In this document: positions 1 through 18,267 of the stretch, piece by piece | How positions within the stretch are numbered: position 1 is the stretch's first letter | Layout of the letters: the number at the start of each line of letters is the position of its first letter | Assembly: GCA_903839695.1 (NCBI GenBank) | Contig: CAIMDI010000002.1 | Span: 1-34,900 of the forward strand | DNA: 34,900 bases | Source: Candidatus Tayloriibacteriota bacterium | GTDB lineage: Bacteria > Patescibacteriota > Minisyncoccia > Phycocordibacterales > PALSA-1337 | Direction: 5' to 3' | Translations under genes and position numbers: made by a program | The notes under the pieces: model-generated | The model's database searches: none | Seen by the model: the letters and a program-made list of their open reading frames with translations, nothing else | What the model was told of the DNA's origin: nothing

Positions 1-1
1 A

Positions 2-121
2 ACTACTAAGCCTATTCAGGCTCGTGTTGTCACAGTATCCGTTCAAGGAAATGATAAAGCAGGAATGAAATTATGTCTTGTTTCCAACGAGAATCATATT
101 CAAATTCTGATGATCAGATAG
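2..121 (+). CDS. C-terminal fragment of an unidentified protein, 5' end outside the window
   Basis: Open frame from the left edge to TAG at 119-121: TTKPIQARVVTVSVQGNDKAGMKLCLVSNENHIQILMIR*. No start codon in the window and no family recognised. Confidence 0.3.
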   Translation, partial: TTKPIQARVVTVSVQGNDKAGMKLCLVSNENHIQILMIR

Positions 122-275
122 ACAGAGACAAAACCAGACGCCGATGGCGACTTCTCTAACGCGCCCATCCTCAACTTCAACGATGGCAAGGTCAAGTTCG
201 ACACGAAGTATGTCGACAATGCCAACGACAACTATGGGTCAGCATCGTGGTTCTTTCCGAAGTCTCTCTTCTTTT
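122..275 (+). repeat. Candidate DGR template repeat (TR); boundaries approximate
   Basis: GC-richer segment with no in-frame start, next to Avd and RT. One frame reads DGDFSNAPILNFNDGKVKFDTKYVDNANDNYGSASWFFPKSLF, with many AAC/AAT/GAC codons as expected of a DGR TR. No variable repeat (VR) is visible in the window, so it could instead be a VR remnant. Confidence 0.5.
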
Positions 276-278
276 TTG

Positions 279-304
279 AAAGGCGTCATTTATTTGACGC
301 CTTT
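279..304 (+). terminator. Strong stem-loop (10-bp perfect stem, 6-nt loop) after the TR candidate; terminator or DGR-associated hairpin
   Basis: AAAGGCGTCA-TTTATT-TGACGCCTTT followed by a T-rich stretch. Confidence 0.65.
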
Positions 305-307
305 TAT

Positions 308-652
308 CTACTTTTGTGAACGCATCCAACCTCCGAGCATTCTTCCTATCTCATCTATATGTATTTGAATCACTAAGTATTTCTTTTGATCGAGTGAGCC
401 AGTGTCTTTCATGAGACGTATAAGGAAACGAAAAAGATTTAGCTTTACGCTTCCCTTTTCAAGGAGCATTATTTTGCCATTTTGTCTGGTATAGCCAGCT
501 TCTAGGAAAAATTCAAACATATCAAGTAGACTATTCTCGCTTCTCTCCCACACAGTATAGCGATCTAATTTAGGAACAACTTTTCTGTATTCATGGAACA
601 GTTTGTACAGGTCATATGATTTCTTTAATATTGGGATTTCAATTTCATTCAT
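308..652 (-). CDS. avd: DGR accessory protein, Avd-like four-helix bundle
   Basis: MNEIEIPILKKSYDLYKLFHEYRKVVPKLDRYTVWERSENSLLDMFEFFLEAGYTRQ...LFRFLIRLMKDTGSLDQKKYLVIQIHIDEIGRMLGGWMRSQK. The LIRL and C-terminal EIGRMLGGW features match the Avd/23S-rRNA-IVP-like family. The start at 652 is preferred to the 739 start in the track. Confidence 0.8.
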   Translation of the reverse strand: MNEIEIPILKKSYDLYKLFHEYRKVVPKLDRYTVWERSENSLLDMFEFFLEAGYTRQNGKIMLLEKGSVKLNLFRFLIRLMKDTGSLDQKKYLVIQIHIDEIGRMLGGWMRSQK

Positions 653-656
653 AAAT

Positions 657-1723
657 ATGAAGGTATATAAAAATATTTTTAATAAGGCGATTGAACTGGA
701 TAATTTGTTTTTGGCATGGGACGAATTCAAGGAAGGCAAAAGATCAAGGTCCGATGTTGCATATTTTGAGTTTGGATTGGAAACGAATATTTTTAAAATT
801 CATCATGAGCTTGAAGAACAAACTTACAGACATAGCCCGTATGAAGAATTTTATATAAGTGATCCAAAACGGAGACATATACATAAAGCAATGGTACGAG
901 ACCGAATCGTTCATCATGCAATCTTTAATATCCTCAATCCAATTTTTGACAAAACTTTCATTGCAAATTCTTTTTCTTGCAGGATAATGAAAGGAAGCCA
1001 TAAAGGAGTTGAGGTTGTAGCAAAAATGCTCAAAAAAGAAAGTCATAATAATTCCAGGTCATGCTATGCACTTAAGTGCGATATACAAAAATTTTTTGAC
1101 AGCATTGATCATCAAACCCTGACATTCTTCCTTTCTAGAAGAATTCAAGATGAAAAAATGATATGGCTCCTTAGGGAAATTATTGATGGCTACGAGAATA
1201 AAAGCGGAATCACGAGAGAGAGAGAGGGGGGGGGAGTTGCGCTTCGCGCAAAAAAGGAATACCAATCGGAAATCTTACTTCCCAAATTTTTGCTAATATT
1301 TATATGAATATCTTTGATCAATTTATTAAACATAATATGAAAGTTAAACATTATGCGAGATATACCGATGATTTTATCATTGTTTCTCACAACAAGATGT
1401 ATTTAGAAAGCCTAATTAAACCAATAAATGAATTCCTAATGAAGAACTTATATTTAAATTTGCATCCAAACAAAACAAGAATTAGGAAATACTCTCATGG
1501 TGTTGATTTCTTGGGATATGTCATTCTACCTCATTGTCAATTAATCCGAAAGAGAACATGGAAAAGAATACTGAGAAAATTCAAAGAAAAGGTTACGAAT
1601 TTCAAACAAGGTAAATTATCAGAAAAATCACTTAATCAATCATTGCAATCATATTTAGGAATCTTGTCTCATGCTGATGCTTATGAGCTTAGCGAGTATT
1701 TGAAGAATTTAAAACTATTCTAG
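657..1723 (+). CDS. DGR-type reverse transcriptase, split by a -1 frame change near 1250-1256 (programmed frameshift, phase variant, decay or assembly error)
   Basis: Frame 0 (657-1256): ...HIHKAMVRDRIVHHAIFNILNPIFDKTFIANSFSCRIMKGSHKGVE...ALKCDIQKFFDSIDH... . Frame -1 (1256-1723): GIPIGNLTSQIFANIYMNIFDQFIKHNMKVKHYARYTDDFIIVS...LNLHPNKTRIRKYSHGVDFLGY. A fused product would be 355 aa; zero-frame termination at 1307 gives 216 aa without YTDD. Confidence 0.85.
1237..1251 (+). other. Small hairpin TTGCGC-TTC-GCGCAA inside the RT, overlapping the 5' end of the A6G heptamer
   Basis: Perfect 6-bp stem with a 3-nt loop. Confidence 0.6.
1250..1256 (+). promoter_or_regulatory. Candidate -1 ribosomal slippery heptamer A AAA AAG
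   Basis: In the zero frame the codons are gcA AAA AAG. A -1 slip reads GGA ATA CCA ATC GGA AAT... = GIPIGN, the expected RT continuation. Confidence 0.5.
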
Positions 1724-17694: not shown

Positions 17695-18267
17695 TTAAAC
17701 AAATCTAGCTTCAAGATTAACCACTCTTTTATTTAAATCAAAGACTTCTTTTCTGCTAGCTTTTTCCTCCAATACATCTCTTATAATAGAAATATCATCC
17801 TTAACGCGTGAAAGTTGTAAATCGATATTAGTAACCTTATCATCAAGTCTATCAACTTTTTCATCAACAGATTTTACATATTCCCCTATACCCATGAGGC
17901 TATCAGTAAAAAATGTTTTTAAATCATTTGCATGCTGTTTAGAATCAAGCATAAAGATCTCCATGTCTTTTTTTGAGTCAACCATCATCAATCTCATTTC
18001 TTGTCTTGATGATTCCATAGAAATATCCATATCTTTTTTATATGTAGACATCATCAATCTTGTCTCTTTCCTTGATGATTCCATCATCAATCTCATTTCT
18101 TGTCTTGATGATTCCATGGAAATATCCATATCTTTTTTATATGTAGACATCATCAATCTTGTCTCTTTCCTTGATGATTCCATCATTAACTCTAAATCCT
18201 TTTTTGTAGCAAATTGTTTTGTATGCTCATCAAAATATTCTTTTGTAATAGTTTCTCCTTTGTTCAT
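17695..18267 (-). CDS. Coiled-coil protein with internal 33-aa tandem repeat
   Basis: MMESSRKETRLMMSTYKKDMDISMESSRQEMRL repeated; heptad-like C-terminus. Confidence 0.75.
   Translation of the reverse strand: MNKGETITKEYFDEHTKQFATKKDLELMMESSRKETRLMMSTYKKDMDISMESSRQEMRLMMESSRKETRLMMSTYKKDMDISMESSRQEMRLMMVDSKKDMEIFMLDSKQHANDLKTFFTDSLMGIGEYVKSVDEKVDRLDDKVTNIDLQLSRVKDDISIIRDVLEEKASRKEVFDLNKRVVNLEARFV
17981..18186. repeat. 99-bp tandem repeat, about 2 copies, nearly identical
   Basis: gaaatatccatatcttttttatatgtagacatcatcaatc... starts at 18020 and again at 18119. Confidence 0.85.

Follow-up and report, generated by a model that had tools for sequence, protein, structure and literature searches.

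The reverse transcriptase (RT) gene of a diversity-generating retroelement (DGR) in the window, a single entire contig of 34,900 bases, is split between two reading frames at a simple GA repeat. We put the probability at roughly three in four (about 0.77) that this RT is a phase-variable contingency gene, in which slippage of the tract would switch the mutator enzyme ON and OFF heritably. The reading is drawn from comparison of sequences: dozens of related bacteria and archaea carry a repeat at the same spot, which suggests a slippage switch, and among the tract-bearing RTs the reading frame is set by the length of this simple repeat within the coding sequence. The host, with a genome assembly of 732 kb in 36 contigs, is a tiny, probably symbiotic bacterium of the Patescibacteria type (CPR). 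The general view is that CPR bacteria and DPANN archaea live on other cells.

The locus, a chromosomal DGR, is made up of a template repeat (TR), a divergent Avd gene and an RT of the DGR type. It is assigned as such because of the Avd, the RT type and the homology of the TR, and because relatives have complete cassettes of TR, variable repeat (VR), Avd and RT, in which the VR lies in the 3′ end of the target gene and differs from the TR at adenines. The TR occupies approximately positions 133–262 of the plus strand, as placed by a profile match and by alignment to the TR of locus L049. A preliminary description had noted an Asn/Asp-codon-rich noncoding segment here, followed by a strong hairpin; homology to the relatives’ target proteins now identifies the segment as the TR, and a profile of four relatives’ VR-bearing target proteins has its single genome-wide match at 131–259 (E = 3.9e-10). 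The hairpin is present on the plus strand at 281–302, where the arms AGGCGTCA...TGACGCCT are followed by a run of T in a terminator-like arrangement. The avd gene (308–652, minus strand) is divergent from the RT gene, with the two start codons 4 bases apart. Its product scores 60 bits against Pfam bAvd (PF22296, cut-off 40 bits) and 73.2 bits against NCBIfam NF033474, slightly below the 80-bit cut-off, which bears out the Avd-like minus-strand reading frame of the preliminary description.

Upstream of the TR, positions 1–130 of the plus strand are noncoding and align with the region upstream of the TR in two relatives: local alignments cover window positions 53–267 against L078 (158/209 identical) and 95–268 against L049 (139/171 identical). 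Pieces of a noncoding stretch of about 400 nt between VR and TR are common to several relatives (L049:4535-4963, L054:3260-3662, L056:5163-5566 and L078) and to window 1–130. Judged from this conservation, the stretch is a candidate structured TR-RNA leader, of which the window would hold the 3′ end only, truncated by the contig start. In a different part of the window, at 17982–18186, a 99-base unit is present in two copies of 99% identity inside a coiled-coil-like open reading frame (17695–18267, minus strand).

A VR-like copy of the TR, which had been predicted to exist elsewhere in the genome, was not found in this fragmented assembly. BLAST, an 81-nt A-free pattern with 3 mismatches allowed and a shorter 3′ pattern all returned, over the 36 contigs, the TR itself only. 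Likewise, the target-family profile run over the host’s own genome matched the TR region alone and no target gene. Most simply, the assembly has no VR because the contig stops short of it. The contig starts about 130 nt upstream of the TR, and in the relatives all same-strand pairs but one have the VR at 334–583 nt upstream of the TR (the exception, at 1,508 nt, is the better pair of the two in L088; one artefact pair, from runs of N in L052, was ignored). The VR of the window would thus be expected off the contig, beyond its start.

The RT itself departs from a typical single gene. The frame that begins at the ATG at 657 encodes motifs 1–3 and, according to the open reading frame list and the translation, terminates at 1307 after an out-of-frame tail (657–1307, plus strand), while motif 4 (GIPIGNLTSQ) and the thumb are encoded on the same strand at 1256–1723 in a frame offset by 2 nt, with coding sequence at 1256–1720, a stop at 1723 and the catalytic YTDD at 1361–1372. 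The two halves match HMMs of the relatives’ RTs in different frames, with 248 bits for the upstream and 211 bits for the downstream half, the latter also belonging to PF00078. Since the motifs [ILV]GxxxSQ and YxDD are both present, the RT is of the DGR type, as had been recognised from IGNLTSQ and YTDD; the assumption that it is one plus-strand open reading frame does not hold, and with it falls the view of the locus as an ordinary compact DGR, the identification as a DGR being retained. The break lies at a simple-sequence tract, (GA)6-G9, at 1214–1234, between RT motifs 3 and 4 and just before motif 4, and of the 43 tract-bearing RTs the remaining 42 have (GA)n at the homologous site. Adjoining the tract are a perfect 6-bp hairpin, TTGCGC-TTC-GCGCAA (1237–1251), and, in the upstream frame, an A AAA AAG heptamer (1250–1256) that is a possible −1 slippery site. 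The best PDB match of a related in-frame RT (L074) is 8ub7_A (E = 1.1e-42), which we take to be the RT of the BPP-1 DGR. Two other interpretations of the sequence around the tract were rejected: a target-site duplication, seen by eye as GGAAT on either side of the tract, fails since (GA)n occurs there in relatives that have no GGAAT, and a DnaA box, TGTGGATAA before some tracts, fails since by eye L056 retains the peptide VDN by other codons.

The frame offset between the two halves was determined for 43 distinct tract-bearing RTs, from deduplicated loci with an internal tract of at least 10 nt. Offsets of 0, +1 and +2 occur in 7, 20 and 16 of them, so that 7 are in frame and 36 are shifted, as read from tract lengths in draft, mostly metagenomic assemblies, which may be off by units. 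All 45 RTs that have no tract are in frame, a difference from the tract-bearing set that gives 5e-18 in Fisher’s test. Among viral DGR RTs (IMG/VR), the 79 that have both halves are all in frame, without a tract in any; these come from 80 stretches examined out of at least 120, one of which has no upstream half. ON and OFF phases are found among close relatives: L024 is in frame and L084 is shifted, and their catalytic halves are 99% identical in amino acid sequence. In-frame alleles, at 7/43, are fewer than one third (P = 0.010), which simple neutral slippage does not predict and selection for the OFF state could. Three duplicates were dropped from the count (L086, L057 and L062, the same loci as L024, L003 and L004). 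L083 was omitted because its upstream half is too short; in an earlier HMM comparison it was shifted, in phase 2. L090 is in frame by its best upstream match and in phase 2 by the match beside the tract, and was counted as phase 2. A further frameshift upstream in L090 means that decay of some loci is possible.

The tract recurs in both CPR and DPANN organisms. Genomes whose RTs are closest to that of the window, including G049, G016 and G013, carry (GA)n at the corresponding position; the similarly close G031, G033 and G058 have no tract and an RT in frame. A scan of the whole of GTDB r220 for (GA)5.5, followed by 8–38 nt and motif-4 DNA, returned 41 stretches, 32 bacterial and 9 archaeal, whose names are of the Patescibacteria type, of the DPANN type or uninformative (“archaeon” and two “uncultured bacterium”), the spread beyond Patescibacteria and DPANN being judged by one motif-4 spelling only. 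Since the scan required an 11-nt tract, short tracts are undercounted; no internal tracts of 8–9 nt are present among the loci of the phase count. The scan of IMG/VR for the tract with motif 4 gave 0 matches, whereas the motif alone gives at least 120. In a sample not selected for the tract (47 RTs obtained through protein or profile searches), 5 have it, 4 of these 5 are shifted, and all 42 tract-free RTs are in frame. In a FastTree phylogeny of 89 of the 99 RTs, tract-bearing and tract-free lineages are intermixed, with many deep supports weak. The archaeal tract-bearing RTs (L061, L064, L067, L068, L069, L070 and L077) form one clade in it, and a search with a CPR Avd HMM found no Avd next to any of these seven. 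Wherever an Avd was detected beside a tract-bearing RT, it is divergent from the RT (26/26). A perfect stem of at least 5 bp lies beside the tract in 7 of 32 segments against 1.5 expected in shuffles, above chance and still in a minority, and the hairpin is therefore left out of the mechanism proposed below.

Both halves of the shifted RTs are under purifying selection and have not decayed. The halves of the 43 tract-bearing RTs contain 0 stops in 13,226 codons. Between L024 and L084 the catalytic half has a dS of 0.40 and a dN/dS of 0.007, and for two pairs in which both members are shifted the catalytic-half dN/dS is 0.087 (L054/L063) and 0.058 (L058/L089); the values were computed by the Nei–Gojobori method with our own script, and among the other 75 pairs silent sites are saturated in most. 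Over 50 pairs of shifted RTs, with sequences shared among pairs, catalytic-half differences at the first, second and third codon positions number 2180, 1243 and 3937. Tract length changes fast relative to the flanking halves: the GA tract measures 21 nt in L024 and 13 nt in L084, with 479/519 and 438/468 positions of the two halves identical, and 71 nt in L054 and 35 nt in L063, with 449/513 and 443/465 identical.

The TR/VR pairs indicate that DGRs with a shifted RT worked recently, since their differences are specific to adenines. In 25 shifted loci, TR and VR differ at 445 of 759 TR adenines and at 6 of 2,108 other bases. The initial 23 of these gave 408/694 and 5/1,926; the remaining two were fetched as a prediction and, as predicted, differ at 21/34 and 16/31 adenines, with 0 and 1 differences at other bases. 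The corresponding values in three in-frame loci are 49/84 and 0/229. A pair was missing in 17 of the 43 tract-bearing loci, by a pair finder that allows few non-A mismatches and is blind to old, degraded pairs. In all 17 the scored locus reaches less than 1 kb beyond the RT on its upstream side, so every tract-bearing locus with ample sequence had a pair, and when two of the 17 were extended, to give the two predicted loci, both had one.

In the proposed mechanism, the GA-dinucleotide tract, which is (GA)6 plus G9 in the window, would lie within codons for the loop between RT motifs 3 and 4, and replication slippage would alter its length, often so in cells that have no MutS. In one of the three phases a full RT would be made, and A-mutated copies of the TR could be written into the target gene’s VR. 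In either of the remaining phases the frame would be lost before the catalytic YxDD, the RT would be null, and the current variant of the target would be inherited unchanged. We infer that tract length varies inside populations and that RT activity depends on phase. Relative to the start of motif 4, the shifted frames reach their stops between 13 codons upstream and 43 codons downstream, with a median of +6. In L074, whose RT is in frame, YTDD starts 35 residues after motif 4; by this distance, 33 of the 36 shifted products end before YxDD; the remaining three would run past it in the wrong frame. An AlphaFold2 model of the L074 RT (mean pLDDT 89.6, pTM 0.86) has a single 10-residue block below 60 in pLDDT, residues 181–190 (57), which holds the tract-coded RERES and sits between a helix ending at 177 and a helix starting at 198; as modelled, this tract-coded loop should tolerate changes in length. 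A MutS core domain was not found in the window genome or in 58 of 60 relatives, in a search that was positive for 11 of 14 control genomes. Loss of mismatch repair favours repeat slippage, and the absence of MutS would therefore favour it here; slippage-prone repeats may be generally unstable in these genomes. It seems rather likely that the tract and the DGR together constitute a two-tier evolvability device, recurring at one RT site in CPR and DPANN, in which an unstable repeat arms and disarms targeted hypermutation at random and heritably, so that most cells would keep their target and a few would diversify it.

The main alternative is that ribosome or RNA polymerase slippage, programmed or leaky, yields full-length RT from every allele, the break being neutral or serving to throttle dose. 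There is a precedent in the phage Quimbyvirus, whose DGR RT spans three overlapping frames, with two programmed frameshifts inferred by the authors (PMC8008677). An active DGR is also compatible with programmed frameshifting, and a −1 shift at the canonical A AAA AAG of the window would restore the RT frame, so that for the window genome alone recoding is possible. It needs a fixed offset, however, and all three offsets occur among the 43 RTs. Moreover, a search for −1 heptamers of the form X-XXY-YYZ found one in the overlap of only one of the 16 loci needing −1, namely the window, and the 20 loci of the other phase are not restorable by −1. An efficient shift would also be expected to harm the in-frame alleles. 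As a general explanation, recoding is unlikely.

The excess of shifted alleles (36/43), the origin of most sequences in draft metagenome assemblies and the extra shift of L090 could instead mean that the RTs are dead pseudogenes or that the consensus repeat lengths are wrong. Dead genes would hardly retain stop-free halves, a catalytic-half dN/dS of 0.007–0.09 in the three closest pairs, or TR/VR differences confined almost wholly to adenines; error is hard to reconcile with an identical site in dozens of independent assemblies and with tract-free RTs that are unshifted, and wrong lengths would still mean a length-unstable tract. This account is very unlikely. That each half is intact in any phase would also agree with two halves made as separate polypeptides that assemble, phase being irrelevant. 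Such a split enzyme is extremely improbable: between the tract and motif 4, an ATG in the downstream frame occurs in 0 of 36 shifted RTs and any of ATG, GTG or TTG in 4 of 36, and the tract-free relatives are single-frame.

GA tracts are found at other places too. Among 285 genomes of the same class, 49 have (GA)8.5 tracts and 126 have DGR-type RTs. In 26 tract loci examined (L095–L120, with L122 added for the phase count only), a DGR RT lies beside the tract in 10 and there is no RT in 16, so tracts of this kind are not confined to DGRs, although DGR RTs are a frequent site. The tract is internal to the RT in two of the 10 (L095 and L110) and at its 5′ end in eight. Eleven RTs that have no internal tract carry a GA tract of at least 8 nt near the 5′ end (in L139 merely 8 nt, inside the gene); at the internal site 10 of these are in frame and L112 is shifted. 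In five of these RTs (L039, L096, L113, L117 and L122) the tract, at this second kind of site, falls at the starts of the divergent Avd and RT genes. Read along avd it is a (TC)n in the N-terminal codons, and none of the five has an ATG farther upstream in that frame; the tract may switch Avd, the RT or both. Another member of the class has a (GA)14 at 1500–1529 of L107; by its sequence (RERERE...FTLIELL) the gene there resembles a type IV pilin with the tract in its leader, and is perhaps a phase-variable pilin.

To our knowledge, it is poorly understood how DGRs in cellular genomes are restrained from mutating their targets constantly. If real, a contingency switch within the RT gene would be a direct answer for the DGRs of CPR and DPANN, and tract phase would predict which cells can diversify. 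A global DGR survey required RTs of 250–550 aa (PMC8144416). Since a shifted allele is usually two shorter open reading frames, DGR counts that require an intact RT frame miss such systems.

DGRs of CPR and DPANN organisms were reportedly described by Paul et al. in 2017. The system analysed here shares with these an RT with IGNLTSQ and YxDD, an Avd, a TR and an A-specific VR in the 3′ end of the target gene, and differs from them in that its RT contains a slippage-prone (GA)n, with 36 of the 43 tract-bearing RTs out of frame. The open-access literature searched yielded no paper on phase variation of DGR RTs, and a mention in Paul et al. 2017 is possible. Contingency genes switched by simple sequence repeats include the CT-repeat adhesin genes of Helicobacter pylori. 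The likeness to those genes lies in a dinucleotide tract within coding sequence, a frame that means ON or OFF and a host poor in mismatch repair, and the difference in that the gene switched here would be an enzyme that hypermutates a target protein, not a surface protein. The Quimbyvirus DGR is similar in having a frame-broken RT beside VRs whose differences from the TR fall at adenines; unlike there, where the section on this DGR names no repeat tract, the RT here has a single break at a simple repeat, and all three phases occur among relatives (PMC8008677).
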